Source: Planomonospora sp. ID67723 (GTDB lineage: Bacteria; Actinomycetota; Actinomycetes; Streptosporangiales; Streptosporangiaceae). Taken from it: a stretch of 64,000 nt of DNA. The stretch covers positions 62,001 through 126,000 of the forward strand of contig NZ_JABTEZ010000006.1 of the NCBI RefSeq assembly GCF_015711605.1, written 5' to 3'. Shown here piece by piece: positions 9,341-41,308 of the stretch. A program made the position numbers and the translations under genes. How positions within the stretch are numbered: the first letter of the stretch is position 1; the number at the start of each line of letters is the position of its first letter. The notes under the pieces are model-generated. The model ran no database searches and was not told the DNA's origin. It was given only the letters and a program-made list of their open reading frames with translations.

Positions 9341-9388
9341 CGGATTCGCCGTTCTGTCCGCTGCACCGGGACGGCGCAGCTCCGTTCG

Positions 9389-10378: not shown

Positions 10379-10438
10379 GGCTCACATCGTAGGCGGCGGA
10401 GGCGGCGGTCCCGCCGCTGACCCGGTCGCCCCGCCCTA

Positions 10439-10467
10439 TTGATCCCAGCAGAAGTATGTGACATTTT
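10439..10467 (+). promoter_or_regulatory. candidate promoter of the hydroxyproline operon
   Basis: TTGATC at 10439-10444 and CATTTT at 10462-10467 are separated by 17 nt, 15 nt ahead of the first start codon, in an AT-rich pocket. An imperfect dyad AGTA-N10-TACT surrounds the -10 and could be a GntR-type site. Weak hexamers; inference only. Confidence 0.3.
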
Positions 10468-10481
10468 ACTGAGGGCCAGCC

Positions 10482-11717
10482 GTGGAAGAGAGGTGGGACG
10501 TGCCGGACGTCGTCGTCATCGGTGCCGGGATCGTCGGGGCCGCGTGCGCCTACTACGCGGCGCGCGCCGGGCTCGACGTGGCGGTCGTGGACCGCGGGCC
10601 GGTGGCGGGCGGCACGACCGGCGCGGGCGAGGGCAACATCCTCGTCTCCGACAAGGAGCCGGGCCCCGAGCTCGAACTCGCCCTGCTCTCCAACCGCCTC
10701 TGGCGCGAGCTGGCGGCTTCCGGGCCGGAGGAGGACGACCGCCCGGCGGCCTCCGGAGGCGCCGGCGGAAGGCTCCCGGGGGCCGGGGCGGGCGGCGGGT
10801 TCGAGTTCGAGTCCAAGGGCGGCCTGGTGGTCGCCGAGACGGCGCGGGCGATGGAGTCCCTCGTGGACCTGGCCGCGAGGCAGGGCGTCGAGCACGTGAC
10901 CGTCACGCCGGACCGGCTGCGCGCCTACGAGCCCCACCTGGCGGGGGGACTCGCCGGAGGCGTGTTCTACCCGCAGGACGCACAGGTCCAGCCCGCGCTG
11001 GCCGCCGCGAAGCTGATCCGCAGGGGGGCCGAGAGGTTCGGCCGCGGCGCCCTGACGTTGCGCACCGGCGTCACCGTCACCGGGTTCGTCCGCGCCGGTG
11101 ACCGGGTCACCGGTGTCAGGACCGACCGCGGCGACATCTCCGCCGGAGCCGTCGTCAACGCCGCCGGGACCTGGGGCGGTGAGGTCGCCGCGCTGGCCGG
11201 GACGCATGTGCCCGTGCTGCCCAGACGCGGCTTCATCCTGGTCACGGAGCCGCTGGAGGAGCCGCTGATCAGGCACAAGGTCTACACCGCCGCGTACGTC
11301 ACCGCGGTGGCCAGTGACTCCGCGGGCCTGGAGACGTCGGCCGTCGTGGAGGGGACCCCGGCCGGGCCGGTGCTCATCGGCGCCAGCCGCGAGCGGGCCG
11401 GCTTCGACCGGACCGTCTCGCCGGCCGTGCTGGGCAGGCTCGCCGCGCAGGCCGTCGCCCTCTTCCCCGCCCTGGCCGAGCGCCGGGCGATCCGGGCCTA
11501 CTGCGGCTTCCGTCCCTACTGCCCCGACCACCTGCCGGTGATAGGCCGGGACCCCCGGGCCCCGGGCCTCTACCACGCCTGCGGCCACGAGGGGGCGGGC
11601 ATCGGCCTGGCACCGGCCACCGGCCACCTGCTGGCCCAGGCCCTGGCCGGCCTCCGCCCCGACCTGGATCTCACCCCCTTCCGCCCGGACCGCTTCGACG
11701 AGGAGGAACGCCCGTGA
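10482..11717 (+). CDS. FAD-dependent D-hydroxyproline/D-amino-acid dehydrogenase subunit (DadA/SoxB-like)
   Basis: DAO-fold flavoprotein of 411 residues, probably the catalytic subunit oxidising D-4-hydroxyproline (or D-proline). The Rossmann motif VIGAGIVGAACAYYAARAG is at about residues 12-30, and the C-terminal segment GHEGAGIGLAPATGHL is the family's second FAD contact. A non-conserved Gly/Ser-rich insert lies at about residues 90-107. GTG 10482 has GAGGG upstream; GTG 10500 (protein beginning MPDVVVIG) has AGAGAGG ahead of it and is an equally good start. It overlaps the next gene by 4 nt (GTGA) and with the following two genes forms the three-component dehydrogenase seen in hydroxyproline operons and in HcnABC-type enzymes. 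Substrate is inferred from operon context. Confidence 0.82.
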   Translation: MEERWDVPDVVVIGAGIVGAACAYYAARAGLDVAVVDRGPVAGGTTGAGEGNILVSDKEPGPELELALLSNRLWRELAASGPEEDDRPAASGGAGGRLPGAGAGGGFEFESKGGLVVAETARAMESLVDLAARQGVEHVTVTPDRLRAYEPHLAGGLAGGVFYPQDAQVQPALAAAKLIRRGAERFGRGALTLRTGVTVTGFVRAGDRVTGVRTDRGDISAGAVVNAAGTWGGEVAALAGTHVPVLPRRGFILVTEPLEEPLIRHKVYTAAYVTAVASDSAGLETSAVVEGTPAGPVLIGASRERAGFDRTVSPAVLGRLAAQAVALFPALAERRAIRAYCGFRPYCPDHLPVIGRDPRAPGLYHACGHEGAGIGLAPATGHLLAQALAGLRPDLDLTPFRPDRFDEEERP

Positions 11718-12139
11718 CCGTGTGGCACCGCTCAGGACCCGGCCCCCGGGACGGGGCGCCCGTGAACCCCTCCCTCCGGCTGGTGCGGGCCCGCCCCGAG
11801 CCGGAGTTCGAGATCAGCGTGGACGGCGCGGCCGTCCCCGTGGTCCCCGGTCAGAGCATCGGGGCCGCCCTGTACGGCGCGGGCGTCCGCTCCTGGCGGA
11901 CCACCCGGTTCGGAGGCCGCCCGCGCGGTCTGTTCTGCGGCATCGGCGTCTGCTTCGACTGCCTGGTCACGGTCAACGGAGTCCCGTCCCTGCGGGCCTG
12001 TCAGACCGAGGCCCGGCCCGGCGACCGGGTGACCACCGGCGGCGGGGAGGCACAGGGCGCCGGTGGCGGTGGCGGTGCGAGCACAGGTGCAGGCGATGGT
12101 GCCGGCGATGGCGGCGGGAACCGGGAGGGCGGGCGATGA
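11714..12139 (+). CDS. (2Fe-2S)-binding subunit of the dehydrogenase
   Basis: Small electron-transfer subunit of 141 residues with a plant-type ferredoxin fold: cysteine ligands in CGIGVCFDCLVTVNGVPSLR-A-C (spacing C-x4-C-x2-C-x12-C, about residues 75-97). It resembles HcnA and the N-terminal domain of sarcosine oxidase alpha. The last ~35 residues are Gly/Ala/Thr repeats absent from the family and may be a tether or just drifted sequence. Its GTG overlaps the upstream stop and its TGA overlaps the next ATG, so stoichiometric translation of the three subunits is likely. Confidence 0.85.
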   Translation: MTVWHRSGPGPRDGAPVNPSLRLVRARPEPEFEISVDGAAVPVVPGQSIGAALYGAGVRSWRTTRFGGRPRGLFCGIGVCFDCLVTVNGVPSLRACQTEARPGDRVTTGGGEAQGAGGGGGASTGAGDGAGDGGGNREGGR

Positions 12140-13656
12140 CCCCCGACTACGACCTCGCGGTGATCGGCGGCGGGCCCGCCGGGGTGGCGGGCGCGCTGAC
12201 GGCCGCGCTCGCCGGGCTCGGCGTGGTCCTCCTCGACGCCGCCCCGCGTCTGGGCGGGCAGTATTTCCGCCGCCTTCCCGGCGGGTTCCGCGCGGCCCGT
12301 CCCGGCGCGCTCCACCCCGCCCCCGGAGGTTCCGGCGGACTCGACCGGTTCACCCGGCAGTGCGAGAGCCTCGCCGCCCGGGCCGACGTGCTGACCGGCC
12401 ACCGCGTCTGGGCGGTCGAGCGCGACGCGGAGGCGGGCGGGACGCTGGCCGTACGGTGCATGGAGGGGGACCGGGAGGAGCGGCCCCGCACGATCACCGC
12501 ACGCCGGCTGCTGATCGCCACCGGCGCGCACGACCGGCCGCTGCCCTTCCCCGGCTGGGACCTGCCGGGCGTGCTCACCGCCGGAGGAGCCCAGGCGCTG
12601 CTCAAGGGCGACCTCGTCGTCGCGGGCCGCAGGGTCGTCGTCGCCGGGACGGGGCCCTTCCTGCTCCCGGTCGCCGCCGGTCTGGCCGCCGCGGGCGCGC
12701 GCGTGCTCGGCGTGCACGAGGCCGCCGGCCGGTTCGGCCTCGCCGGACACCCGTTCCTCGCCGCGGGCAAGGCCGCCGAGGCGCTCGGGTACGGCCTGCG
12801 CCTGGCCCGGCACCGGGTGCCGTACCGGGGCCGCCAGGCGGTGGTCGAGGCGCACGGCGAGCACGAGCTGACCCATGTCACGATCGCGGACCTGGACCGG
12901 GACTGGCGGCCGGTCGGCACCCGCACGGTCGCGTGCGACACCCTCGCCACCGGGTACGGCTTCGTCCCCCGGCTCGACCTGCCCGTCCAGCTCGGCTGCG
13001 CCCTGCGCGTCGACCAGGGCGGGCATGGGGCCGGTCACGGGGACCCCGTCGTCGCCGTGGACGCGGGCATGCGCACCAGCGTGCCCGGTGTCTACGCGGC
13101 GGGGGAGACCACCGGCGTCGGCGGCGCCGTACTGGCCGAGACCGAAGGAAGGCTGGCGGGCCGCTCGGCGGCCGCCGACCTGGGCCGCCGGATCCCCCCC
13201 GACCCCGCCCTGGCCCGGCGGCGCGACCGCCTGGCCGCCTTCGCCCGGGTGCTGCTGGAGACCTACCCCGTACGCCCCGGCTGGCGGGAGTGGCTCCGCG
13301 ACGACACCCTGGTCTGCCGATGCGAGGAGGTGCCGCTGGCGGCCGTGCGCGAGGCGCGGGAGCTGGGGGCCACCGACGCGCGCTCGGTCAAGCTGCTGTC
13401 CCGCGCCGGGATGGGCTGGTGCCAGGGCCGGATGTGCGGCTACGCCGTCTCGTGCCTGGCCGGGGAGGACTCCCCGCCCGGCGGGAGCCCGCCGGCGCCC
13501 CGTCGGGCGATCGCCCAGCCCGTCCGGCTCGGCGACCTCGCCCGGCTCGCCACGGACCCTCCGGCGGGCGAGCCTCCCGCAACGCCCCCTCCCTCCTCGG
13601 CCGGGGGCCTCGCCCCGCCGGCCTCCCCCACCCCCTCTCCGGAAGGACGACCATGA
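12136..13656 (+). CDS. NAD(P)/FAD oxidoreductase subunit with BFD-like [2Fe-2S] domain
   Basis: Third subunit of the dehydrogenase, 506 residues, HcnB/NoxA-like. An N-terminal FAD motif VIGGGPAGVAGALTAALAGL (about residues 9-28) and a second dinucleotide motif VVVAGTGPFLLPVAAGLAAAG (about 170-190) are followed by ETTGVGGAVLAETEG and a C-terminal BFD-like iron-sulfur domain with CRC and GWCQGRMC cysteines (about residues 396-435). The final ~70 residues are Pro/Ala-rich and probably disordered. ATG 12136 overlaps the previous stop by 4 nt, and the stop overlaps the next start. It passes electrons to an unidentified acceptor, likely the respiratory chain. Confidence 0.85.
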   Translation: MTPDYDLAVIGGGPAGVAGALTAALAGLGVVLLDAAPRLGGQYFRRLPGGFRAARPGALHPAPGGSGGLDRFTRQCESLAARADVLTGHRVWAVERDAEAGGTLAVRCMEGDREERPRTITARRLLIATGAHDRPLPFPGWDLPGVLTAGGAQALLKGDLVVAGRRVVVAGTGPFLLPVAAGLAAAGARVLGVHEAAGRFGLAGHPFLAAGKAAEALGYGLRLARHRVPYRGRQAVVEAHGEHELTHVTIADLDRDWRPVGTRTVACDTLATGYGFVPRLDLPVQLGCALRVDQGGHGAGHGDPVVAVDAGMRTSVPGVYAAGETTGVGGAVLAETEGRLAGRSAAADLGRRIPPDPALARRRDRLAAFARVLLETYPVRPGWREWLRDDTLVCRCEEVPLAAVREARELGATDARSVKLLSRAGMGWCQGRMCGYAVSCLAGEDSPPGGSPPAPRRAIAQPVRLGDLARLATDPPAGEPPATPPPSSAGGLAPPASPTPSPEGRP

Positions 13657-14549
13657 TGACGAGCCGCGTGAAACCCTGGCACGGGGTGATGGTGGCGACC
13701 GCACTGCCGATGAACGACGACCTCTCGATCGACTACGACGCCTACGCCGGGCACTGCCGGTGGCTGGTGGAAGGCGGCTGCGACGGGGTGGTGCCCAACG
13801 GCTCGCTGGGCGAGTACCAGACCCTGACGCCCGAGGAGCGGGCCGAGGTGGTCCGGGTGGCGGTGGCCGCGGTCGGCGGAGACCGGGTCATGCCGGGGAT
13901 CGCCGCCTACGGCGCCCTGGAGGCCCGCCGTTGGGCCGAGCAGGCCCGCGAGGCCGGATGCCACGCGGTGATGCTGCTGCCACCCAACGCCTACCGGGCC
14001 GACGAGCGGGCCGTGATCGGGCACTACCGCGAGGCGGCGCGGGCGGGCCTGCCGGTGGTCGCCTACAACAATCCCATCGACACCAAGGTGGACCTCACCC
14101 CGGCGCTGCTCGCGCGGCTGCACGCCGAGGGCCTGATCGTGGCGGTCAAGGAGTTCAGCGGCGACGTCCGGCGGGCCTACGAGATCGCCGAACTCGCCCC
14201 CGGCCTGGACCTGCTGGCCGGCGCCGACGACGTGCTGCTGGAGCTGGCCGTGGCCGGCGCGGCCGGGTGGGTGGCGGGCTACCCCAACGCGCTGCCCGAG
14301 TCCTGCGCGGCGCTCTACCGGGCCGCGACCGCCGGGGACCTGGCGACCGCGCTCCCGCTCTACCGGGCGCTGCACCCGCTGCTGCGCTGGGATTCCAAGA
14401 CCGTCTTCGTCCAGGCCATCAAGGCCTCCATGGACCTGGCCGGCCGCCGGGGCGGCCCGTGCCGCCCGCCCCGGCTCCCGCTGGCCCCCGAGGACGAGGC
14501 GGCCGTCCGCGCCGCCACCGAGAAGGCCCTCGCCGAGGGACTCCGCTAG
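13653..14549 (+). CDS. DapA-family lyase/deaminase, probable pyrroline-hydroxy-carboxylate deaminase
   Basis: Class I aldolase-type (beta/alpha)8 enzyme of 298 residues. The Schiff-base lysine is K166 in VAVKEFSGD and the proton-relay tyrosine Y138 in VVAYNNP, both family-diagnostic. The phosphate/carboxylate loop appears as NGSLGEYQTL instead of the DapA TTGE, arguing against a lysine-biosynthetic enzyme. In hydroxyproline catabolism a DapA homologue converts 1-pyrroline-4-hydroxy-2-carboxylate to alpha-ketoglutarate semialdehyde, which fits the neighbours; that assignment is inference. Two in-frame ATGs (13653, 13656) follow GGAAGG; the first overlaps the upstream stop. Confidence 0.83.
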   Translation: MMTSRVKPWHGVMVATALPMNDDLSIDYDAYAGHCRWLVEGGCDGVVPNGSLGEYQTLTPEERAEVVRVAVAAVGGDRVMPGIAAYGALEARRWAEQAREAGCHAVMLLPPNAYRADERAVIGHYREAARAGLPVVAYNNPIDTKVDLTPALLARLHAEGLIVAVKEFSGDVRRAYEIAELAPGLDLLAGADDVLLELAVAGAAGWVAGYPNALPESCAALYRAATAGDLATALPLYRALHPLLRWDSKTVFVQAIKASMDLAGRRGGPCRPPRLPLAPEDEAAVRAATEKALAEGLR

Positions 14550-14575
14550 CAGCACATCGCGCAAGGAGAGCGACA

Positions 14576-15577
14576 ATGAGGACGAAAAGGGTCTTCCATG
14601 CGGTGGACTCCCACACCGAGGGCATGCCCACCCGGGTGATCACCGGAGGGGTGGGAGTCGTCCCCGGCGCGACCATGGCCGAGCGGCGCGAGCATTTCAT
14701 GGCGCACCTGGACCACGTCCGCACGCTGCTCATGTACGAGCCGCGCGGCCACGCGGCGATGAGCGGGGCCATCCTGCAGCCGCCCACCCGGCCCGACGCC
14801 GACTACGGCGTGCTCTACATCGAGGTCTCCGGCTGCCTGCCGATGTGCGGGCACGGCACCATCGGCGTCGCCACCGTCCTGGTGGAGACCGGGATGGTCG
14901 AGGTTACCGAGCCGGTCACCGTCGTCCGCCTGGACACCCCCGCAGGGCTGGTCGTCGCCGAGGTGCGGGTCGAGGACGGCGCCGCCACCGAGGTGACCAT
15001 CACCAACGTGGCCTCCTTCAGCGTCGGTCTGGACCGGGTGGTCAAGGTGCCGGGGATCGGCGAGGTGGTGTACGACCTGGCCTACGGCGGCAACTTCTAC
15101 GCGATCGTCCGGCTGGAGGACCTCGGCCTGCCGTTCGACCGCGCGCACGGGCAGCGGCTCCTCGACGCGGGGCTGGCGATCATGGAAGCGGTCAACGAGG
15201 CGGACGAGCCGGTGCACCCCCTCGACGAGCGGGTCAGGGGCTGCCACCACGTCTACCTCGCCGCCCCCGGTTCGGACGCCGGGCACTCCCGGCACGCCAT
15301 GGCCATCCATCCCGGCTGGTTCGACCGCTCCCCGTGCGGGACCGGCACCAGCGCCCGGATGGCCCAGCTGCACGCCCGCGGCGAACTCGCCCTCGGTGAC
15401 GGCTTCGTCAACGAGTCGTTCATCGGCACCCGGTTCACCGGCCGGCTGGTGGGGGAGACCTCCGTCGCCGGCCGGCCCGCGGTGATCCCCGCCATCACGG
15501 GCCGGGCGTGGGTGACGGGCACCGCCCAGTACTTCCTCGACCCCCGCGATCCCTTCCCCGAGGGGTTTCTCCTTTGA
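14576..15577 (+). CDS. 4-hydroxyproline 2-epimerase / proline racemase family
   Basis: Cofactor-independent epimerase of 333 residues converting trans-4-hydroxy-L-proline to the cis-D isomer (or racemising proline). Both catalytic cysteines are present: C91 in PMCGHGTIG and C254 in SPCGTGTSARMA, which excludes the family's dehydratases where the first cysteine is replaced. DSHTEGMPTRVITGG at the N-terminus is typical of the epimerase group. ATG 14576 has AAGGAGAG upstream, 26 nt after the deaminase stop. Together with the upstream genes it supplies epimerase, dehydrogenase and deaminase; the last enzyme, alpha-ketoglutarate semialdehyde dehydrogenase, is not in the window. Confidence 0.88.
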   Translation: MRTKRVFHAVDSHTEGMPTRVITGGVGVVPGATMAERREHFMAHLDHVRTLLMYEPRGHAAMSGAILQPPTRPDADYGVLYIEVSGCLPMCGHGTIGVATVLVETGMVEVTEPVTVVRLDTPAGLVVAEVRVEDGAATEVTITNVASFSVGLDRVVKVPGIGEVVYDLAYGGNFYAIVRLEDLGLPFDRAHGQRLLDAGLAIMEAVNEADEPVHPLDERVRGCHHVYLAAPGSDAGHSRHAMAIHPGWFDRSPCGTGTSARMAQLHARGELALGDGFVNESFIGTRFTGRLVGETSVAGRPAVIPAITGRAWVTGTAQYFLDPRDPFPEGFLL

Positions 15578-15650
15578 TCCCTCCCCCGGCTCGTCTGAGA
15601 CAATGGCCGCCGCCCGCGGGACGCGAGGCGAGGAGATGAGAGGCGCTGGG

Positions 15651-16337
15651 ATGGCTCCTACGGCACATGACCGGCTCGACCTGCCGGTCGTGGGCGGGCG
15701 GCAGAGCCTGCGGGAGCAGGTGGCCGACGCGCTGCGAGCGGCTCTGATCACCGGGGAGATGCGCCCCGGCGTGGTCTACTCCGCGCCGGCGCTGGCCGCC
15801 CAGTTCGGCGTGTCCGCCACGCCCGTCCGCGAGGCGATGCTCGACCTGACCAAGGAGGGCCTGGTCGAGGCGGTGAGGAACAAGGGCTTCCGGGTCACCG
15901 AGCTGTCCGGGCGCGACCTGGACGAACTCACCGAGATCCGCCGGCTCGTCGAGGTGCCCACGGTGGCGCGGCTGGCGGACGCCTCCCGCGCGGAGGGCTT
16001 CGAGGAGCTGCGCCCGCTCGCCCGTCGCATCGTCGAGGCGGCCGAGCAGGGCGACCTGCTCGGCTACGTGGACGCCGACCTGCGCTTCCACCTCGCCCTG
16101 CTGTCGCTGGCCGGCAACGCCCACCTGGTCGAGGTGGTGCGCGACCTGCGCACCCGGGCCCGGTTGTACGGCCTGGGTGCCCTGCGCGAGCGGGGCGTCC
16201 TGTCCGACTCCGCCCGCGAGCACCTCGACCTGCTCGACCTGCTCGCCGCCGGGGACACCGGCGGCTGCGAGCGGCTCATGCGCGAGCACATCCGGCACGT
16301 CCGGGGCATCTGGGCCGACGGCCCGCAGGAGGTGTGA
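15651..16337 (+). CDS. GntR-family (FCD/FadR subgroup) transcriptional regulator
   Basis: Likely local regulator of the catabolic operon it closes. A winged HTH (about residues 18-80; FGVSATPVREAMLDLTKEGLV is the recognition region, seen as VSATPVREAML) precedes an all-helical FCD ligand domain with metal-type His residues in DADLRFHLALL and MREHIRHV. Several ATGs are in frame (15603, 15636, 15651); 15651 is chosen because GAGAGG stands 7 nt upstream, giving 228 residues, normal for the family. Ligand probably hydroxyproline, proline or an intermediate (inference). Confidence 0.85.
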   Translation: MAPTAHDRLDLPVVGGRQSLREQVADALRAALITGEMRPGVVYSAPALAAQFGVSATPVREAMLDLTKEGLVEAVRNKGFRVTELSGRDLDELTEIRRLVEVPTVARLADASRAEGFEELRPLARRIVEAAEQGDLLGYVDADLRFHLALLSLAGNAHLVEVVRDLRTRARLYGLGALRERGVLSDSAREHLDLLDLLAAGDTGGCERLMREHIRHVRGIWADGPQEV

Positions 16338-16346
16338 ACCGCGCCG

Positions 16347-16394
16347 CGGCGCTCGCCATGCCCCGGCGCTCGCCATGTCGCGGCGCTCGCCATG
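16347..16394. repeat. three tandem 17-bp units in a convergent intergenic gap
   Basis: The 14-nt core CGGCGCTCGCCATG occurs at 16347-16360, 16364-16377 and 16381-16394 with a strict 17-bp period, between the convergent gntR and EamA genes. The 3-nt spacers differ. No gene is present; a slippage-type minisatellite is the simplest reading. Confidence 0.8.
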
Positions 16395-16449
16395 CCGTGG
16401 CGCCGGGCAGGTCGCGACCGGCGGCGGCCCGTCGTGGCGGGCGGGGCGC

Positions 16450-17364
16450 TCAGTGAGGGCTGCGGGTCGCGCCCACGCTGGCGATGACCACGCACCCGAT
16501 GGCGGCCCACTCGCGCACGTTCAGCACCTCGCCCAGGACGACCAGCCCGACCAGCGCCGCCATCGCCGGCTCCAGGCTCATCAGGATGCCGAACACCCGC
16601 TTGGGCATCCTGCGCAGCGCCTCAAGCTCGATCGCGTAGGGGATGGCGGAGGAGAGCAGCCCGACGCCCAGGCCGATCAGGAGCAGCTCGGGCTGGAGCA
16701 GGTCGGCTCCGCCCATGCCGATCCCGACGGGAGCGACCAGCAGGACGGCGACGATCATCGCGAAGGAGACGCCCCCGGTGCCGGGGAAGCGCTGCCCCAC
16801 GGCCGCCGAGAGCAGGATGTAGGCCGCCCAGCAGGCTCCGGCGATCAGCGCGAAGCCGATCCCGACCAGGCTGAGGCCCGCCGCCTGGCCCCAGGGCGCG
16901 AGCAGGGCGATGCCGGAGCCCGCCAGCGCCACCCACAGCAGGTCCAGCCGCCGCCGCGAGGCGGCCACCGCCACGCCGAGCGGGCCGAGGAACTCGATCG
17001 CCACGGCGATCCCCATGGGCAGCCTGGCCAGCGCCTCGTAGAACGACAGGTTCATCAGGCCGAGCGTCGCGCCGAACGCTACGCCCACTCCGAGGTCGGC
17101 CCGGGTCAGCCCCTTCAGCCGGGGCCGGGCGACCACGCCCAGCACCAGGGCGCCCATCGCGATCCGCAGGAACACCACCGCGCTCGGCGACAGCTGCGAG
17201 AACAGCTCCTTGGCGAAGCCCGCGCCGATCTGCACCGACAGGATGGCCAGCAGGACCAGGCCGGACGGGGGGACGGCGTCGGAGGCCGCCCTGAGCAGCG
17301 CGCCCGGCCGGGGCAGGCCCCGCCGGTACGGCTCGGCGGATCCCGTCAGGGCGTCGGCGGTCAC
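16450..17364 (-). CDS. EamA/RhtA-like inner-membrane exporter
   Basis: DMT-superfamily permease of 304 residues with ten hydrophobic helices and two EamA repeats; closest in style to RhtA (threonine/homoserine exporter), as shown by FLGPLGVAVAASRRRLDLLWV and the SLEPAMAALVGLVVLGE end motif. GTG 17364 is chosen because a perfect AGGAGG lies 6 nt upstream; the longer open frame to 17487 starts inside a region with an 8-bp palindrome GACATGTC (17464-17471) that is more likely a regulator site. Substrate unknown; an amino-acid exporter beside an amino-acid catabolic operon is plausible overflow protection. Confidence 0.85.
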   Translation of the reverse strand: MTADALTGSAEPYRRGLPRPGALLRAASDAVPPSGLVLLAILSVQIGAGFAKELFSQLSPSAVVFLRIAMGALVLGVVARPRLKGLTRADLGVGVAFGATLGLMNLSFYEALARLPMGIAVAIEFLGPLGVAVAASRRRLDLLWVALAGSGIALLAPWGQAAGLSLVGIGFALIAGACWAAYILLSAAVGQRFPGTGGVSFAMIVAVLLVAPVGIGMGGADLLQPELLLIGLGVGLLSSAIPYAIELEALRRMPKRVFGILMSLEPAMAALVGLVVLGEVLNVREWAAIGCVVIASVGATRSPH

Positions 17365-32063: not shown

Positions 32064-33080
32064 TCACGGGAGACCGGGCGGGGGAGCGGTGCTGCCCCGG
32101 GGCGTGAGCCGGGCCGCGGCGTCCTCGAAGGGGCCCGGCTCCTCTCCGGCGACGAGCGCCAGCAGGCGGCGGGCGGCGTGCGCGCCGTACGCCGGGATGT
32201 CGCGGCTGAGCGCGGTGAGCGGCGGCCGCACCACCTGCGACAGGGGGGAGTCGTCCCAGGCGACGATCGACAGGTCGCCGGGTACGTCCAGGCGCAGCTC
32301 CTGCGCGGCCGACAGGCCCGCCAGAGCCATGATGTCGTTGTCGTAGACGATCGCGGTGGGCCGGGCGGGGGAGCTGAGCAGCCGCCGGGTGGCGCGGGCG
32401 CCCTCCTCGCCGGTGTAGTCGGTGTGCACCGTGACGTGCTCGGCGAGGCCCTCGCAGGCTTCGGTGAACGCCCGGTCGCGCAGGGCGGTGTGCACCAGCT
32501 CGGGCAGGCCGGCGACACGGGCGATCCTGCGGTGTCCCAGGGTGAGGAGATATGCGACCGTCTCCCGTACGGCGGCGCCGTCATCGGACCACACCGGCAC
32601 CAGGGAACCGGCGTGGGAGGGGTGGCCGACCACCACCGCGGGCAGGCCGAGCGCCTCCAGCTCCGGCACGCGGGGGTCGTCCAGGTGCAGGTCGACCAGG
32701 ATCGCACCGTCGACGCGGCCCTCGCCCCACCAGCGGCGGTAGACGGCCACCTCCTGCCCGTGGTCGGCCACCACCTGCAGCATGAGCGCGTAGGAGCGTG
32801 CCGCCAGCTCGCCCTCGATGCCGCTGATCAGCTCCATGAAGAACGGCTCCATGCCCAGCACGCGGGCCGGGCGGCACAGGGCCAGCCCGACGCTGTGGGC
32901 CCGCGCGCCGTTCAGGGCGCGGGCGGCGCTGCTGGGACGCCAGCCGATCTCCTCGGCGACCGCCAGAATCCTCGCCCTGGTGCTCTCCGACACGCCGGGC
33001 CGGCCGTTGAGGGCGTAGGAGACCGCCCCCTTGGAGACCCCCGCCTGCCGGGCGACATCGGCGATCGTCGGTCTTCTCAT
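32064..33080 (-). CDS. LacI-family regulator of the mannoside operon
   Basis: Repressor of 338 residues, divergent from the transporter operon. The HTH TIADVARQAGVSKGAVSYAL (about residues 5-24) and hinge helix SSAARALNG are followed by a periplasmic-binding-protein-like domain with sugar-type contacts (DGAILVDL, YDNDIMALAG, VAWDDSPLSQ). ATG 33080 has GAGGAGGGG immediately upstream. A TACACT -10 at 33107-33102 on this strand overlaps operator O1, indicating autoregulation. Inducer is probably a beta-mannoside or cello-oligosaccharide (inference). Confidence 0.9.
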   Translation of the reverse strand: MRRPTIADVARQAGVSKGAVSYALNGRPGVSESTRARILAVAEEIGWRPSSAARALNGARAHSVGLALCRPARVLGMEPFFMELISGIEGELAARSYALMLQVVADHGQEVAVYRRWWGEGRVDGAILVDLHLDDPRVPELEALGLPAVVVGHPSHAGSLVPVWSDDGAAVRETVAYLLTLGHRRIARVAGLPELVHTALRDRAFTEACEGLAEHVTVHTDYTGEEGARATRRLLSSPARPTAIVYDNDIMALAGLSAAQELRLDVPGDLSIVAWDDSPLSQVVRPPLTALSRDIPAYGAHAARRLLALVAGEEPGPFEDAAARLTPRGSTAPPPGLP

Positions 33081-33106: not shown

Positions 33107-33124
33107 AACTGAACCGGTCCAGTT
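33107..33124. promoter_or_regulatory. LacI-type operator O1
   Basis: AACTGAACCGGTCCAGTT is a palindrome at 16 of 18 positions with the ACCGGT centre usual for LacI-family sites. It covers the lacI -10 and lies just upstream of the operon -35. The nonamer CCGGTTCAG recurs at 33171-33179, just past the predicted transcription start of the operon, as a possible second half-operator O2. Confidence 0.65.
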
Positions 33125-33129
33125 CCCTA

Positions 33130-33158
33130 TTGACACGCATCCACAGGGAACTTACGGT
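33130..33158 (+). promoter_or_regulatory. mannoside operon promoter
   Basis: TTGACA (33130-33135), 17-nt spacer, TACGGT (33153-33158): a consensus-like HrdB-type promoter, predicted start near 33165, giving a leader of about 70 nt that contains O2 and the CebR-type box. Confidence 0.75.
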
Positions 33159-33204
33159 CGCGGTACTTACCCGGTTCAGGATCGCATGCGGTCGCGTGTA
33201 TCGG

Positions 33205-33218
33205 TGGGAGCGCTCCCA
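33205..33218. promoter_or_regulatory. CebR/CelR-type box
   Basis: TGGGAGCGCTCCCA is a perfect 14-bp palindrome identical to the operator known for CebR (Streptomyces) and CelR (Thermobifida), regulators of cellulose/cellobiose use. It lies in the leader, 18 nt before the binding-protein ATG, where a repressor would block elongation. Confidence 0.8.
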
Positions 33219-33236: not shown

Positions 33237-35003
33237 ATGCGGACTCGACGGCGGTTCCTGGTCCTCGGCGTGGTGGGCTGCCTGGCCGCGGCCGGCTGCA
33301 CGGACGGCTCCAGCGGGCCCTCGGCTCCCAGCACGGCGCCCGCGGCGTCCGGGAGCGCGGCCCCCCAGCCGGGCGGCGGGGGCGGCGCGTTCCCGCGCAA
33401 CGAGACCCTCTACACCAGCGGCACCCAGTGGGGCCCGCCCGCCAACTGGAACCCGCTGCGGACCTGGGACTCGGCCACCGGGACCAAGGGGCTGGTCTAC
33501 GAGACGCTGTTCCTGTACGACCCGCAGACCGACACGTTCACCCCCTGGCTGGCCGACAGCGGTGCCTGGACCGGCGAGAAGACCTACGAGCTGAAACTCC
33601 GCAAGGGCGTCACCTGGGCCGACGGCAAGCCCTTCACCGCCGCCGACGTGGTCTTCACCGTCGAGCTCGGCAAGATGAAGACGGTCCCCTACGCCAACCT
33701 GTGGACCTGGCTGGAGAAGGCCGAGGCCGTCGACGCCGCGACCGTGCGCTTCACCTTCTCCGAGGCCAACCACCAGCAGTGGGCCAACTGGGTCTACAAC
33801 AACGCGATCGTGCCCAAGCACCTGTGGGAGGGGCGCTCGGAGGAGGAGGTGATGAACGGGACCAACGACAAGCCCGTCGGCACCGGGCCGTACGCCTACC
33901 ACAGCCACGACCAGGACCGCATGGCGTGGGTGAAGCGCGACGGATGGTGGGCCACGGCGGCCCTGGGCAAGGACGTCAAGCCCAAGTACATCGTCGACAT
34001 CGTCAACTCCAGCAACGAGGTGGCGATGGGCCTGCTGCTGCAGAAGGGGCTGGATCTCAGCAACAACTTCCTGCCCGGCATCGCCAACCTGGCCGGCGGC
34101 GACTTCGGCGTGCAGACCTACTATCCCGAGCCGCCGTACATGCTCTCGGCCAACACGGCCTGGCTGGTCCTCAACACCACCAAGAAGCCGATGGACGATC
34201 CCGCCTTCCGCAAGGCCGTCGCCAACTCCGTCGACACCAAGAAGATCGTCGAAGGCGTCTACGGCAACCTGGTCAAGGCCGCCAGCCCGACCGGCCTGCT
34301 GCCCCAGTGGGACAAGTACGTCGACCGGGCCGTGGTGGGCGAGAAGGGCTTCTCCTTCGACACCGCCAAGGCCAGGAAGCTGCTGGCCGACGCAGGATAC
34401 AAGGACACCGACGGCGACGGGCTGGTGGAGAACAAGGACGGCTCCAAGGCCTCACTGAAGATCATCGTCCCGGCGGGGTGGACCGACTGGATGGAGGCGG
34501 CCCGGGTCATCGCCGAGGGGGCCAAGGCCGCAGGGATCGACCTGACCGCCGAGTTCCCCGACTTCAACGCCCTGGTCGACCAGCGGGGGAACAACAAGTT
34601 CGACATGCTGCTCAACAACGAGCGCCAGCTGTCCAACACCCCGTGGATGTACTACGACTACATCTTCCAGCTCCCGGTCAACAAGGTGCAGAACACCGTC
34701 AACTTCGGCCGTTACGAGAACAAGAGGGCCTGGGAGCTCGTCCAGGAGCTCGACGGCAAGAAGGTCGGCGACGTCGAGGGGATGAAGCGGGTCGCCTCGG
34801 AACTGCAGAAGATCCACTTGGAGGACATGCCGGTGATCCCGCTCTGGTACAACGGCCTGTGGGCCCAGACCAGCAGCGCGGTCTGGACGAACTGGCCCTC
34901 CTCGGCCCCGGGCACGCCCAAGTCCCCGCCGACGATGTGGCGCAACTGGCTGGAGCTGGGCGGCGTGCTGACCCTCACCGAGCTGAAGCCGGCCGGAGGC
35001 TGA
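33237..35003 (+). CDS. Opp/Dpp-family (SBP_bac_5) lipoprotein, probable oligosaccharide binding
   Basis: Extracytoplasmic substrate-binding lipoprotein of 588 residues. Signal peptide RRRFLVLGVVGCLAAAGC with lipobox Cys at residue 21 is followed by a Ser/Pro/Gly linker, then a family-5 fold with KLRKGVTWADGKPFTAADVVF (seen about residues 120-140; key residues DGKPFTA) and an acidic DTDGDGLVENKDG loop (about 395-407) like those in the cellobiose/mannobiose-binding members of Thermotoga and Pyrococcus. It opens an operon ending in beta-mannosidase, so sugar rather than peptide transport is inferred. ATG 33237 has GAGAGGAGAG upstream. Confidence 0.85.
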   Translation: MRTRRRFLVLGVVGCLAAAGCTDGSSGPSAPSTAPAASGSAAPQPGGGGGAFPRNETLYTSGTQWGPPANWNPLRTWDSATGTKGLVYETLFLYDPQTDTFTPWLADSGAWTGEKTYELKLRKGVTWADGKPFTAADVVFTVELGKMKTVPYANLWTWLEKAEAVDAATVRFTFSEANHQQWANWVYNNAIVPKHLWEGRSEEEVMNGTNDKPVGTGPYAYHSHDQDRMAWVKRDGWWATAALGKDVKPKYIVDIVNSSNEVAMGLLLQKGLDLSNNFLPGIANLAGGDFGVQTYYPEPPYMLSANTAWLVLNTTKKPMDDPAFRKAVANSVDTKKIVEGVYGNLVKAASPTGLLPQWDKYVDRAVVGEKGFSFDTAKARKLLADAGYKDTDGDGLVENKDGSKASLKIIVPAGWTDWMEAARVIAEGAKAAGIDLTAEFPDFNALVDQRGNNKFDMLLNNERQLSNTPWMYYDYIFQLPVNKVQNTVNFGRYENKRAWELVQELDGKKVGDVEGMKRVASELQKIHLEDMPVIPLWYNGLWAQTSSAVWTNWPSSAPGTPKSPPTMWRNWLELGGVLTLTELKPAGG

Positions 35004-35085: not shown

Positions 35086-36081
35086 TTGCGACGCTACTTC
35101 GGCAGGAAACTGCTGGTCTACGGGCTCACCTTCCTGGTGGCCGTCACCGTCAACTGGATGATCCCGCGCTTCATGCCCGGCGATCCCGTGCAGAGCATGA
35201 TCGCCAGGGCCAACGTCTCGCAGCCCGCCGCCGTGGAGGCCATGCGCGCCCACTACACGAGCCTGTTCGGGTTCGACCTGCCGCTCTGGAAGCAGTACGC
35301 CAACTTCTGGGCCGCGCTCTTCCGGGGCGACCTGGGCATCAGCGTCTGGCTCTTCCCCACCCCGGTGACCGACGTGATCGTCCGGGCGGTGCCGTACACG
35401 CTGGCCCTTCTCGTCCCGGCCATCCTGCTGAGCTGGTGGGCGGGGAACCGGTTCGGGGCGTTCGCGGCCCGGCGCAGGTGGCTGGAGAACACGGCGTTGC
35501 CCGTCGGCTACGTGCTCACCGCGACGCCGTACATGTGGCTGGCCATCCTGATGGCGTGGGGGCTGGGCGTGGTGGCGGGGATCTTCCCCGTCGCGGGCGG
35601 CTACGGCTTCGCGCTCCGGCCCGGATGGTCGGCCGAGTTCCTCGGCAGCCTGGCGCTCCACTGGGTCCTGCCGTTCCTCTCGCTGTTCCTGGTGGCCTTC
35701 GGCGGGTGGGCGATCGGCATGCGCAACATGATCATCTATGAGCTCGAAGCCGACTACGCCAACTACCTGGCCGCGCTCGGCGCGCCGCGGCGGCTGATCC
35801 GCCGCTACGCCTTCCGCAACGCGGTCCTGCCGCAGATCACCGGGCTGGCCCTGCAGCTCGGCGTGCTCGTGGCCGGAGCCCTGGTCACCGAGATCGTCTT
35901 CTCCTATCCCGGCCTGGGACACCTGATCCTCCAGGCCATCCAGAACCAGGACTTCTTCCTGCTGCAGGGCACCTTCCTGTTCATCGTGGTGGGCGTGCTG
36001 ATCGCCAACTTCGTCATCGACGTCGTCTACGTCCTGGTCGACCCGCGGATCAGGACCGGGATGGGAGGCGAGGCGGCGTGA
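35086..36081 (+). CDS. ABC transporter permease, DppB type
   Basis: First membrane subunit, 331 residues, six helices. The N-terminal DppB-like arm (FMPGDPVQSMIARANVS) and the cytoplasmic EAA loop EADYANYLAALGAPRRLIRR (about residues 222-241) are clear. The start is TTG 35086, supported by CCGGAGG 5 nt upstream; no ATG is near. Lies 82 nt after the binding-protein gene and overlaps the next permease by 4 nt (GTGA). Confidence 0.9.
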   Translation: MRRYFGRKLLVYGLTFLVAVTVNWMIPRFMPGDPVQSMIARANVSQPAAVEAMRAHYTSLFGFDLPLWKQYANFWAALFRGDLGISVWLFPTPVTDVIVRAVPYTLALLVPAILLSWWAGNRFGAFAARRRWLENTALPVGYVLTATPYMWLAILMAWGLGVVAGIFPVAGGYGFALRPGWSAEFLGSLALHWVLPFLSLFLVAFGGWAIGMRNMIIYELEADYANYLAALGAPRRLIRRYAFRNAVLPQITGLALQLGVLVAGALVTEIVFSYPGLGHLILQAIQNQDFFLLQGTFLFIVVGVLIANFVIDVVYVLVDPRIRTGMGGEAA

Positions 36082-36920
36082 ACCGCGAGGCGCTGCACTT
36101 CGCCGTCCGCAACGGCAAGCTCCTGGTCGGGCTGGCCGTGCTCCTGCCGCTGCTCGCCCTGGCCCTGCTCGGCCCCGCGCTCGCCGAGGGCGACCCCAAC
36201 GCCTACGTCGGCACCCCGGCGCAGGCACCCTCGGGCGAATACTGGTTCGGCACCACGATGTTCGGCCAGGACGTCTTCGCCCAGTTCGTGTACGGCCTGC
36301 GGGTCACCTTCCTGGTCGGGCTGCTCGGCGGAGGGCTGGCCGCGCTCATCGGCATGGCCGTCGGCTTCACCGCCGGCTACCGGGGCGGGCTGGTCGACGA
36401 GGTGCTGAACATGCTCACCAACATCGTCCTCGTCCTGCCCGCGCTGGCCGTCCTGCTGGTCGTCAACGCCTACCTCGGCGTCCGCAGCGTGAGCGTGCAG
36501 GCGCTGTTCATCGGGCTCACCTCCTGGCCGTGGGCGGCCAGGGCGATCCGCGCCCAGACGTTCTCGCTGCGCTCACGGGACTTCGTCGACCTGGCCCGGC
36601 TGAGCGGGGTGCGCACCTGGAAGATCATCACCCGGGAGATCGCGCCGAACATGAGCTCCTACCTGTTCATGACGTTCATCCTGCTGTTCGGCGGGTCGGT
36701 CCTGATCGCCGCCTCGCTCGACTTCATCGGCCTGGGGCCGACCCAGGGGGTCTCTCTCGGCCTGATGCTCAACAACGCGGCCCGGTGGAGCGCTCTGCAC
36801 CTGGGCATGTGGTGGTGGTTCATCCCGCCGGGGGCCGGGATCACCGTGATCGTCGGCGCGCTGTACGTCATGAACGTCGGGCTGGACGAGGTGTTCAACC
36901 CCAGGCTGCGGGAGTTGTGA
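36078..36920 (+). CDS. ABC transporter permease, DppC type
   Basis: Second membrane subunit, 280 residues, with the DppC-type periplasmic segment GEYWFGTTMFGQDVFAQFVYGL (key residues FGTTMFGQDVFAQ, about 52-64) and EAA loop RDFVDLARLSGVRTWKIITR (about 172-191). GTG 36078 overlaps the preceding stop. With the TTG-started partner it forms the heterodimeric channel. Confidence 0.9.
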   Translation: MNREALHFAVRNGKLLVGLAVLLPLLALALLGPALAEGDPNAYVGTPAQAPSGEYWFGTTMFGQDVFAQFVYGLRVTFLVGLLGGGLAALIGMAVGFTAGYRGGLVDEVLNMLTNIVLVLPALAVLLVVNAYLGVRSVSVQALFIGLTSWPWAARAIRAQTFSLRSRDFVDLARLSGVRTWKIITREIAPNMSSYLFMTFILLFGGSVLIAASLDFIGLGPTQGVSLGLMLNNAARWSALHLGMWWWFIPPGAGITVIVGALYVMNVGLDEVFNPRLREL

Positions 36921-36957: not shown

Positions 36958-37899
36958 ATGGCGCTGCGGGTGAACGACCTGCGGGTCCACTACAGGACCC
37001 TGAAGGGCGAGGTGAAGGCGCTCGACGGCGTCACCTTCGAGGTCGGCGACGGGGAGATCCTGGGGCTGGCGGGGGAGTCGGGGTGCGGCAAGACCACCCT
37101 CGGCAAGAGCCTCATCCGGATGGACGGCCGGATGAGGCACGCCGGGGGCACGGCCGAGCTCGACGGAGCGGAGCTGCCGATCGGCGACGACCGGGCGATG
37201 GACCGCTTCAGGTTCCGCGAGGTGTCGATCATCCCGCAGTACGCGATGAGCGCCATGAACCCCACCAGGAAGATCGGCCGGATGGTGGACGAACTGCTGC
37301 GGGCCCGCGGGGCCGAGCCGGACGGCGCGGAGCTGCGCCGCCGCCTGGACCTGGTGGAGCTCCCTCACACGGTGCTGGAGCGCTACCCGATCGAGCTGTC
37401 CGGCGGCATGAAGCAGCGCATGGTCATGGTGATCTCCACCCTGCTCGACCCCTCGCTGCTGATCGCCGACGAGATCACCTCCGCGCTGGACGTCTCCACC
37501 CAGAAGGCGGTGGCCAGGACGCTCACGGAGTTCCGGGAACGGGGGTTCGTCAGGAGCATGGTCTTCATCACCCACGACATCTCGCTCACCTACCAGATCG
37601 CCGACACGATCATGGTCATGTACGCCGGGAAGCTCGCCGAGAAGGCTCCCGCGGACACGATCGTCACCCGGCCGCGGCACCCCTACACGCGGCTGCTGAT
37701 CTCCTCGCTGCCGGAGGTCGGAGTCCGCTACTCCGACCGGAGGCTCTCCGGCATCCCCGGCAGCCCGCCCGCGCTCCTCGACCCGCCCGCCGGGTGCCGC
37801 TTCCGGGACCGCTGCCCCCTGGCGTTCGACCGGTGCGCCGAAGAACCCCCCGCCGTCGAGGTCGCCCCCGGCCACCACGTCTCCTGCTGGAGGTCATGA
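36958..37899 (+). CDS. ABC transporter ATPase, DppD/OppD type
   Basis: Cytoplasmic ATPase of 313 residues. Walker A GESGCGKTT (about 38), signature LSGGMKQR (about 146), and Walker B LLIADEITSALD (about 169), where the usual DEPT is DEIT. The C-terminal CRFRDRCPLAFDRC cysteine motif (about 282-295) is the OppD/DppD Fe-S-like signature. ATG 36958 begins 37 nt after the permease stop. Pairs with the next ATPase. Confidence 0.92.
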   Translation: MALRVNDLRVHYRTLKGEVKALDGVTFEVGDGEILGLAGESGCGKTTLGKSLIRMDGRMRHAGGTAELDGAELPIGDDRAMDRFRFREVSIIPQYAMSAMNPTRKIGRMVDELLRARGAEPDGAELRRRLDLVELPHTVLERYPIELSGGMKQRMVMVISTLLDPSLLIADEITSALDVSTQKAVARTLTEFRERGFVRSMVFITHDISLTYQIADTIMVMYAGKLAEKAPADTIVTRPRHPYTRLLISSLPEVGVRYSDRRLSGIPGSPPALLDPPAGCRFRDRCPLAFDRCAEEPPAVEVAPGHHVSCWRS

Positions 37900-38777
37900 T
37901 GCTCAGACTCGACGCGGTGACGAAGACCTACCGGGTGGGGGCGTTCGGCGGGCGGACCCTGACCGCCGTCGACGGCGTGAGCCTCGACCTGGTCCCCGGC
38001 GAGGTGGTCTCGCTCATCGGGGAGAGCGGGAGCGGCAAGACCACCGTCGGCAGGATGATTCTCGGACTGACCCCCGTCTCCGGCGGATCGATCACGCTCG
38101 ACGGGGCTCCCGTACGGCCGGGCAAGGACTACTACCGGCAGGTCCAGGGCGTCTTCCAGGACCCCTTCAGCTGCTACAACCCGATCTTCAAGGTCGACCG
38201 GGTCCTCCAGATGATCCGGGAGGAGTACTTCCCCGGGACCGCGGGCGCGCAGTGGGAGGAGAAGGTCGCCGAGTCGCTGGAGGCGGTCCGGCTCGCCCCC
38301 GCCCTGGTCCTGGGCAAGTATCCGCACCAGCTCAGCGGCGGCCAGCTGCAGCGCCTGCTGATCGCCCGGGCGCTCCTGCTCGGGCCGCGGTTCCTGGTGG
38401 CCGACGAGATCACCAGCATGCTCGACGCCTCCACCCGCATCGACGTGCTCAACCTGCTCGCCGACCTGAAGTCCCGCGGCCTCGGCGTGCTGTTCGTCAC
38501 CCACGACCTGTCGCTGGGCAACTACGTCAGCGAGCGGGCCGTGGTGCTGCACCGCGGCCGGGTGGTCGAGTCCGGTCCGACCGGGCTGGTCTTCGGCAAC
38601 CCGCTGCATCCCTACACGGCCAGGCTGCTGGACTCGGTGCCGCGGCTCACCGCCCGCTGGGACGGCGTCCCGCAGGAGCCCGTCCCGGACACGCCGGAGC
38701 CGTCCGTCCTGGTCGAGGCCGAACCCGGCCACTTCGTGCGGCGCGTCCCGGCGCCGGAGCTGAGGAGCGTGAGTTGA
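37896..38777 (+). CDS. ABC transporter ATPase, DppF/OppF type
   Basis: Second ATPase, 293 residues: Walker A GESGSGKTT (about 43), signature LSGGQLQRLLIARAL (about 147), Walker B FLVADEITSMLDAS (about 168; again DEIT). Unlike OppF it lacks the C-terminal cysteine motif. Two in-frame ATGs (37896, 37899) follow GGAGG; the first overlaps the previous stop. Its own stop overlaps the TTG of the mannosidase. Confidence 0.92.
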   Translation: MMLRLDAVTKTYRVGAFGGRTLTAVDGVSLDLVPGEVVSLIGESGSGKTTVGRMILGLTPVSGGSITLDGAPVRPGKDYYRQVQGVFQDPFSCYNPIFKVDRVLQMIREEYFPGTAGAQWEEKVAESLEAVRLAPALVLGKYPHQLSGGQLQRLLIARALLLGPRFLVADEITSMLDASTRIDVLNLLADLKSRGLGVLFVTHDLSLGNYVSERAVVLHRGRVVESGPTGLVFGNPLHPYTARLLDSVPRLTARWDGVPQEPVPDTPEPSVLVEAEPGHFVRRVPAPELRSVS

Positions 38778-41308
38778 CGATCCCGCGTACCGCCGAGTCC
38801 CTCCGGACCCCGCAGATCCCGCAGCCCCCGGGAGCGCTGCGGCCGCTGCACGACGGCTGGACGCTGTCGGCCGTGACGGGAACGGCCGGAACGGAGGCGG
38901 CGCCGGGGGAGCTCCGCGCCGTCCCGGCGACGGTGCCCGGATGCGTGCACACCGACCTGCTGGCGGCCGGGCTGATCGACGACCCCTACCTGGACGACAA
39001 CGAGAACCGACTGGGCTGGATCGGCCGCACCGCGTGGCGCTACGAGACGACCTTCACCTGGGCCCCCGACGGGCACGAGCGGACCGACCTGGTCTGCGAG
39101 GGGCTCGACACCGTCGCCACGATCGTCCTCAACGGCACCGAGGTCGCCACCACCGCCAACCAGCACCGGTCCTACCGTTTCCCGGTGCGGGAGCTGCTGC
39201 GCGAGGGGGAGAACACGCTCCGGGTGCACTTCGGCTCGCCGTACGACTACATCGCCGAGCGCCGGGCGGAGCTCGGCGACCGGCCCGGAGCCTATGCCGA
39301 GCGCTACCAGTTCATCCGCAAGATGGCCTGCAACTTCGGCTGGGACTGGGGCCCGGCGCTGGTCACGGCCGGGATCTGGCGGCCGATCGGGTTGCACTCC
39401 TGGAGCGGGGCGCGCCTGGCCGAGGTCGTCGCCCTGGCGAGCGCCGAGGGAGGGGCCGGCCGGGTCGAGGCGCGCGTCCGGGTCGAGCGCGCGGCGCGGA
39501 CGCCCCTCACGGTGACCGCCGGGATCACGGGCGTCCCGGAGGCCTCCGCGGCGGTACGGCTGGCGCCCGGCGAGTCCGAGGCCGTGATCACCGTCGAGGT
39601 TCCGGGGCCGCGGCTGTGGTGGCCGCGCGGGTACGGCCCGCAGCACCGCCACGAGCTCACGGTCCGCCTCGATCCGGAGGAGACCCGGGCCGGAGGCGGG
39701 ACCCGGCCGCTGGACGTATGGCGCGGGCTGATCGGGTTCCGCTCCGTCCGGCTGGAGAGGGCCGGTGGGGCCTTCACCCTGCTGGTCAACGAGGTGCCGG
39801 TGTTCGTGCGCGGGGCGAACTGGATTCCCGACGACTGCTTCCCGCACCGGGTCACCCGCGACCGCCTGGCCGCCCGCCTCGGCCGGGCGGCCGAGGCGAA
39901 CGTCAACCTGCTGCGGGTCTGGGGCGGGGGAATGTACGAGAGCGAGGACTTCTACGACCTCGCCGACGAGCTGGGCCTGATGGTCTGGCAGGACGTCCCC
40001 TTCGCCTGCGCGGCCTACCCCGAGGAGGAGCCGTTCTGGAGCGAGGTGGAGGCGGAGGTCCGGCAGAACGCGGCCCGGCTGGCCCGGCGGCCCTCGCTGG
40101 TGCTGTGGTGCGGCAACAACGAGAACATCGAGGGCCACGCCGACTGGGGCTGGCAGCGGGAACTGGGGGAGCGCAGCTGGGGGGCGGGCTTCTACTACAA
40201 GCTGCTGCCCGCCGTGCTCGCCGAGGTCGACCCGGCCCGGCCGTACTGGCCCGGCAGCCCCTACTCCGGCGCCCCGGACCTGCCGCCCAACGACCCGGCC
40301 CGCGGCACCGTGCACATCTGGGACGTGTGGAACCGCGAGGACTACACGTGCTACGCCGCCTACACCCCCCGGTTCGTCGCCGAGTTCGGCTTCCAGGGCC
40401 CGCCCGTCCTCGCCACCCTGCGGGAGGCGCTCTCCGACGACCCGCTGACCCCCGACTCGCCCGGCCTGGCGCACCACCAGAAGGCCGCCGACGGCCACGC
40501 CAAGCTCCTGGCCGGCCTGGGCGGCCACCTGCCCCGGCCCGAGACCTTCGACGACTGGCACTACCTGACCCAGCTCAACCAGGCCAGGGCGGTGGCCTTC
40601 GGCATCGAACGGTTCCGGGCGCTGGCGCCGTACTGCGCGGGGACGATCGTCTGGCAGCTCAACGACTGCTGGCCGGCGGTCTCGTGGTCGGCGATCGACG
40701 GGTCGGGCCGCCGCAAGCCGCTGTGGTACGCGCTGCGCCGCGCCTACGCCGACCGCCTGCTCACCGTCCAGGACGGCGCGGTCGCGGTGGTCAACGACAC
40801 CGACGAGCCGTGGACGGGGAATCTCTCCCTGGTACGGCACAGCCTCACCGGAAAGGTGCTGGCCAGAGCCTCCGCCGCGGTGGACGCGGCCCCGCGCTCG
40901 GTGGAGCGGGTGCCGCTGCCCGCCTCCGTCGCCGTGCCCCGGGACCCGGCCGCCGAGCTGCTGGCCGTACGCCTGGGAGATCTGCGGACCGTGCGCTTCT
41001 TCGCGGAGGATCCGCAGGTGGCCTTCCCGCCGGCCGCCTACGACGCCGAGGCGGCCCCCGTCCCCGGCGGCCTGGAGGTGACCGTCACCGCCCGGACCGT
41101 CCTGCGCGACCTGTGCCTGTTCCCCGACCGTCTCGACCCCGCCTCGGAGGTGGACGACATGCTCCTCACCCTCCTGCCCGGCGAGACCGCCGCCTTCCGC
41201 GTGACCGGTTCCCCCGACCCGGAGGCGCTCGTCGGCCACCCGGTGCTGCGCGTCGTGAACGGTCCCACTGTGTGGACCGGCGTACGTGGCAGGGCGAGGG
41301 GCCGTTAG
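38774..41308 (+). CDS. GH2 beta-mannosidase
   Basis: Cytoplasmic exo-beta-mannosidase of 844 residues, no signal peptide, so it hydrolyses imported manno-oligosaccharides. N-terminal GH2 sugar-binding domain ([36 protein letters not shown]), the [11 protein letters not shown] segment characteristic of beta-mannosidases, immunoglobulin-like domain, and TIM barrel with acid/base E450 in [10 protein letters not shown] and nucleophile E537 in [20 protein letters not shown] is also diagnostic. TTG 38774 overlaps the ATPase stop (TTGA) with GAGGAG upstream. This enzyme is the main evidence for the operon's substrate. Confidence 0.93.

Follow-up and report, generated by a model that had tools for sequence, protein, structure and literature searches.

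A beta-mannoside operon promoter with two classes of LacI-type operator and a probable link to the cellulase regulon

In the window, the whole 64,000-nucleotide stretch of soil actinobacterium DNA analysed here, open reading frame translations and profile scans place a lacI gene on the minus strand, divergent from a mannoside operon that starts at 33237, and the intergenic region between the two contains operators of two distinct LacI-type classes. Based on comparisons within the genome and across relatives, we consider it likely that two LacI-family repressors act on this one promoter: the local LacI at the operators O1 and O2, and an orthologue of the cellobiose regulator CelR/CebR at a box in the leader.

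The divergent promoter and its sites

The features of the locus, in window positions, are:

32064 to 33080, minus strand: local LacI-family repressor gene, 338 amino acids, with Pfam LacI and Peripla_BP_3 matches and a 74% identical paralogue elsewhere in the genome
33107 to 33124: O1 palindrome AACTGAACCGGTCCAGTT, where the local LacI is proposed to bind and to regulate its own gene, with similar sites beside lacI in relatives
33130 to 33158, plus strand: operon promoter, -35 TTGACA at 33130-33135 and -10 TACGGT at 33153-33158, spacer 17 bp
33166 to 33179, plus strand: O2, CTTACCCGGTTCAG, directly past the -10, which we propose as the chief operator of the local LacI; conserved, with four genome matches at up to one mismatch
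33205 to 33218: CelR/CebR box TGGGAGCGCTCCCA in the leader, an exact match, present with at most one mismatch in 32 of 47 transporter-first loci
33237 to 35003, plus strand: substrate-binding lipoprotein, SBP_bac_5 by profile, with a mannoside-binding protein among its nearest solved relatives
35086 to 36081, plus strand: Opp-type permease 1, BPD_transp_1
36078 to 36920, plus strand: Opp-type permease 2, BPD_transp_1
36958 to 37899, plus strand: Opp-type ATPase 1, ABC_tran and oligo_HPY
37897 to 38777, plus strand: Opp-type ATPase 2, start approximate, within the open reading frame 37083-38777; assigned from its translation and a 33% match to ATPase 1
38834 to 41308, plus strand: GH2 beta-mannosidase, start approximate, Glyco_hydro_2_N2, best solved relatives beta-mannosidases

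By homology, the operon is thus predicted to encode an Opp-type mannoside transporter and a beta-mannosidase. The top solved relatives of the binding protein are 4pft, 1vr5 and 4pfu, of which 4pfu is also deposited as a mannoside transport protein; we take these three, as well as 2o7i, to be Thermotoga proteins.

Both the near-consensus promoter and the ACCGGT-centred palindrome O1 of an earlier, sequence-only reading of this region are present. O1 is palindromic at 16 of 18 positions and rare, its symmetric consensus yielding one match in the window at up to three mismatches, compared to a shuffle mean of 0.04. A minus-strand TACACT, the candidate -10 of lacI, merely touches the edge of O1 and lacks a good -35. 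The motif CCGGTTCAG at 33171, which the same reading had taken for a half-copy of O1, is actually part of the full operator O2, imperfect yet palindromic at 10 of 14 positions. O1 and O2 are palindromic, lie near the regulator gene, are conserved together with it, and share the central CG described as a trait of LacI-type operators (PMC4052901). O2 is the best conserved element of the promoter across the transporter-first loci described below, and we infer that O2 rather than O1 is probably the principal operator of the local LacI.

Four matches to the O2 pattern occur in the genome at up to one mismatch: the window, the promoter of a second beta-mannosidase operon (an exact match), and two further sites outside mannoside promoters that have no fitting neighbour gene. 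The second operon (contig C1, positions 9376-17222 of the stretch L046) comprises an SBP_bac_1 transporter, a ROK-like gene and the gene for the 74% identical LacI; its promoter has O-type sites, yet no CelR box within five mismatches. A wide O1 regulon was considered and rejected, the loose O1 pattern being uninformative genome-wide with 366 forward matches versus 431 for the reversed control.

The third site differs in kind, having AGCGCT at its centre instead of the ACCGGT of the O-type sites. Its claimed identity to the CebR/CelR box is exact over 33205-33218, and the published CelR/CebR site is the same sequence (PMC3377646, PMC4898821 and PMC4697097 for the regulons). The box is the sole match in the window at up to two mismatches, but since shuffled sequences give a mean of 0.89 such matches, it is unusual only through its exactness.

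A CelR orthologue and its boxes in the genome

The genome does encode a CelR/CebR orthologue, which excludes the objection that the box might have no such reader. The protein, a Pfam LacI match (contig C2:1474518-1475537, or 4518-5537 of the stretch L048), aligns to PDB 5ysz, which we take to be Thermobifida fusca CelR, with an E-value of 1.1e-125, and its recognition helix GVGRGTVSRVINGS is unchanged. Judged from the translations of the neighbouring genes, its operon reads as cebEFG-bglC-cebR, linking the orthologue to a cellobiose transporter and a beta-glucosidase, and two exact boxes lie ahead of it. In the whole genome (8.34 Mb on nine contigs), a search for further copies of the box returned 12 exact matches and 20 at up to one mismatch, compared to 1 for the reversed control; from base composition, about 0.12 exact copies would be expected per genome.

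Besides the two at the ceb-like operon, four of these 12 exact boxes lie at or just ahead of cellulase genes (GH48, two GH6, GH9), one lies in the window and one at the start of another LacI gene. The remaining four (one in L052, three in L053) are not tied to recognised target genes, which counts against our interpretation. Among the one-mismatch boxes, another is found ahead of a GH48 gene and one at the start of a GH1 gene, while some are intragenic, for example in a GH81 gene. The proposed tie between mannan and cellulose use is supported, since exact copies of the box also occur at the ceb-like operon and at the GH48, GH6 and GH9 genes. The secreted mannanases lend no support to it, because the stretches scanned at their loci (three GH5 and three GH26-like, the latter weak and partial matches of 22-27 bits) contain no box at fewer than three mismatches.

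Some of the boxes have features of their own. The three in L053 (positions 6069, 6164 and 6259, contig C6) are spaced by exactly 95 bp in an apparently tandem-repeated stretch, upstream of genes whose translations read like glycosyltransferases. Two one-mismatch boxes (L054, 5128 and 5335, corresponding to C2:1323128 and 1323335) lie upstream of a large nonribosomal peptide synthetase gene with condensation and AMP-binding domains. The LacI gene with an exact box at its start (box at C1:1580247, L021; gene region L047, 7711-10273) adjoins a Ser/Thr kinase-like gene, and similar LacI/kinase neighbours have been noted in S. roseum and T. bispora (PMC3377646).

It is conceivable, though unlikely, that the leader box is read not by the CelR of the ceb operon but by another LacI-family protein, such as L021 or the CelR paralogue L019. 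The exact box at the start of the L021 gene would fit this explanation, as would the several CelR-like paralogues, 45-59% identical, in the related genomes searched. However, among 30 LacI-type matches in the genome, in 23 of which the helix was read, the 5ysz recognition helix is unchanged only in the L018/L048 protein.

The sites among relatives

For the comparison across species genomes, 328 relatives of the local LacI were found; the best 80 of these 328 loci were kept, together with 20 further stretches from relatives, among the matches listed. The resulting 104 LacI upstream regions from 102 sources were reduced to 95 by removing those with identical first 150 bases, and box counts refer to the 84 loci of these with a LacI identity of at least 70%. 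In 47 loci, the first gene is the SBP5-type transporter gene, as in the window; 26 of them, the window included, have an exact box, six have one with a single mismatch, and 15 have none. Reversed boxes were found in none of the 46 transporter-first loci besides the window. The other 37 loci comprise six GH2-first loci without a box before the gene, two SBP1-first loci without a box, and 29 with another or unrecognised first gene, a single one of which, a decayed locus, has a box with one mismatch. O2 lies within two mismatches of its consensus in all 47 transporter-first loci, and in 15 of the 37 others; in the remaining 22, all from the group with another or unrecognised first gene, it is weaker or absent. 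The block from the -35 to O2 is strongly conserved across the transporter-first loci, and a word scan of the intergenic stretch of the window recovered no recurring elements besides O1, the -10/O2 block and the box.

The site accompanies the operon in 32 of 47 cases, and its position relative to O2 varies between 98 bp ahead and 126 bp past it, a variability that argues against contact between the two repressors. The one-mismatch box of L187 precedes O2 by 54 bp, which puts it at the promoter or upstream of it; L173 and L182 each have two copies with one mismatch, one of them 98 bp ahead of O2. Of 41 genomes selected, 40 were searched, all but L162, and every one of these encodes a CelR homologue (39 with 78-98% identity, the Streptomyces one with 57%) and contains 6-19 exact boxes, compared to none for the reversed control, indicating that the loci without a box sit in genomes where CelR has other sites. 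For all 12 box-less genomes searched, CelR and boxes elsewhere were indeed found (L112, L113, L116-L118, L125, L126, L130, L137, L145, L150 and L153). The 15 box-less transporter-first loci, which belong to two clades, count against the explanation that we prefer; as the searched genomes have CelR and boxes elsewhere, the CelR input appears to be dispensable.

On a tree of 83 distinct LacI proteins, the distribution of the box requires four changes, compared to a mean of 17.9 after shuffling. For the contrast test of transporter against box, in which L122, L149 and L175 were left out as short contigs, 35 loci have both, 30 neither, 14 only the transporter and one only the box. The link corresponds to about four independent contrasts and is not significant; none of them points in the opposite direction. 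The 35 include the doubtful locus L117, whose one-mismatch box we rejected as a chance match within the glycine-serine linker of the binding protein; it was counted as a box in this test only, giving 14 box-less transporter loci here and 15 in the count of 84 loci.

Several operators per repressor are common in the LacI family, and the leader box, lying in the control region of the local LacI, might simply be its third operator. We regard this as quite improbable. The box differs from the O-type sites in sequence and equals the published CelR/CebR site, and the helices of the two proteins differ as well, with SKGAVSYAL or SKVAVSYAL in LacI versus GRGTVSRVI in CelR. Both variants of the LacI helix, VSKGAVSYALN and VSKVAVSYALN, occur in loci with and without the box, which points to a different reader for the box, most likely CelR. 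Moreover, O2 is retained in all 15 transporter-first loci that have no box, the 74% identical paralogue adjoins O-type sites without a box, and at the ceb-like promoter two boxes occur without any O-type site at fewer than four mismatches. The division of labour suggested by the sequence-only reading, with the local LacI at O1 and O2 and a genome-wide cellobiose regulator at the third site, is thus favoured by these comparisons, with the helix variants being independent of the box.

Two loci, L091 and L092 (the latter also represented by L128), are rearranged, with GH2 as the first gene and the transporter behind it. Each has an exact box within the GH2 gene, 700 and 763 nt past the match start, respectively, and some 987 and 948 bases away from the start of lacI. 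The box codons, GGA GCG CTC CCA, are identical in both, although GGA is uncommon in these genes (9 of 70 and 5 of 79 glycines), as is CCA (4 of 66 and 2 of 73 prolines). In the flanks of the box, only 13 of 30 residues agree; over the whole gene, the codon is the same for 424 of 615 identical residues. None of the 11 other loci compared has the box peptide at this place of the GH2 protein. This pattern suggests that selection kept the operator inside the gene, and an operator maintained within coding sequence is probable for L091 and L092, whose boxes count as one event because the loci share descent. In the same supported clade, what is left at the decayed locus L100 (Microtetraspora sp. NBRC 13810, on a contig shared with L168), about 200-560 bases away from the start of lacI, is a short stretch that reads like this portion of GH2 and carries a one-mismatch box; genes reading as histidine biosynthesis follow directly.

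These positions also bear on the idea that the inverted repeat of the box acts at the RNA level, by forming a hairpin in the leader close to the ribosome-binding site. The fold predicted for the leader allows the repeat a short stem but is no better than that of shuffled sequences (z 0.32), and the copies before O2 in L187, L173 and L182 and inside GH2 in L091 and L092 make such a role very improbable. That the box is a functionless chance match, as the 15 of 47 transporter-first loci that manage without it might suggest, is hardly credible given about 0.12 exact copies expected per genome, exact copies in 26 of the 47 loci and little other conservation in the leader.

A two-input model and known systems

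In the resulting model, the local LacI would bind O1 and, mainly, O2 just past the -10, with O1 serving as the partner site of O2 and probably autoregulating lacI, and would probably be released by a beta-mannoside. The CelR/CebR orthologue would bind the leader box and form a roadblock to RNA polymerase until released by cellobiose; roadblock repression by LacI-family proteins is known. The operon would thus have its own repressor while also belonging to the cellulase regulon, and its full expression should require the two signals together, as plant-wall glucomannan would supply them. The pairing of proteins and sites, the ligands, the roadblock and the two-input logic are our inferences from sequence. 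More tentatively, and with some doubt on our part, the promoter may be a coincidence detector for glucomannan, needing mannoside for LacI at O1/O2 and cellobiose for CelR at the box, in which selection has, for most lineages, retained the CelR input alongside the mannoside transporter, also where a rearrangement put the box inside the beta-mannosidase gene and altered the protein (L091, L092).

If true, the uptake of mannan fragments in many Streptosporangiaceae would be part of the cellulase regulon, with cellobiose gating some hemicellulose use. The promoter would offer a directly testable two-input sugar switch, relatives for comparison that have the second input, have it displaced or lack it, and what is probably an operator maintained inside coding sequence.

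By title and abstract, none of the papers listed in our literature searches describes this promoter. The actinobacterial CelR/CebR regulons of Thermobifida, Streptomyces and others share the 14-bp site, the orthologous regulator, cellulases and the cellobiose transporter as targets, and cellobiose as effector (PMC3377646, PMC4898821, PMC4697097). The accessible parts of these papers name neither a mannoside transporter/beta-mannosidase operon nor a second, local operator set, but the supplementary S. roseum site table of PMC3377646 may list one. The Bacillus subtilis gmu operon is likewise a mannan operon with its own repressor, GmuR, and responds to cellobiose or mannobiose; GmuR, however, is PTS-linked, CcpA is the second regulator, and a CelR box is not mentioned in the accessible part of the source (PMC10766802). 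GlyR2 of Clostridium thermocellum is a LacI-type, mannobiose-responsive repressor of a mannanase gene whose predicted targets include cellulase genes, but it is a single repressor, compared to two with separate operators here (PMC10766802).

The closest precedent is gloR<>gloEFGKL of Thermotoga maritima, where a divergent, local LacI-type regulator and an EFGKL-type transporter share an intergenic region with distinct operators for GloR and the genome-wide CelR (PMC3750489). Neither cellobiose nor any other sugar tested there induced this locus, which its authors attribute to repression by GloR (PMC3750489). It differs from ours in that its genes are predicted to serve xyloglucan, not mannoside, and in belonging to another phylum with other operators; a position-shifting or intragenic box, as in the window-type loci, is not reported for it in the parts of PMC3750489 available. 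Dual local and global LacI control is, by analogy with this locus, already known. What appears unusual in the window-type loci is the CelR box itself, seemingly persistent but mobile, and once inside a gene.
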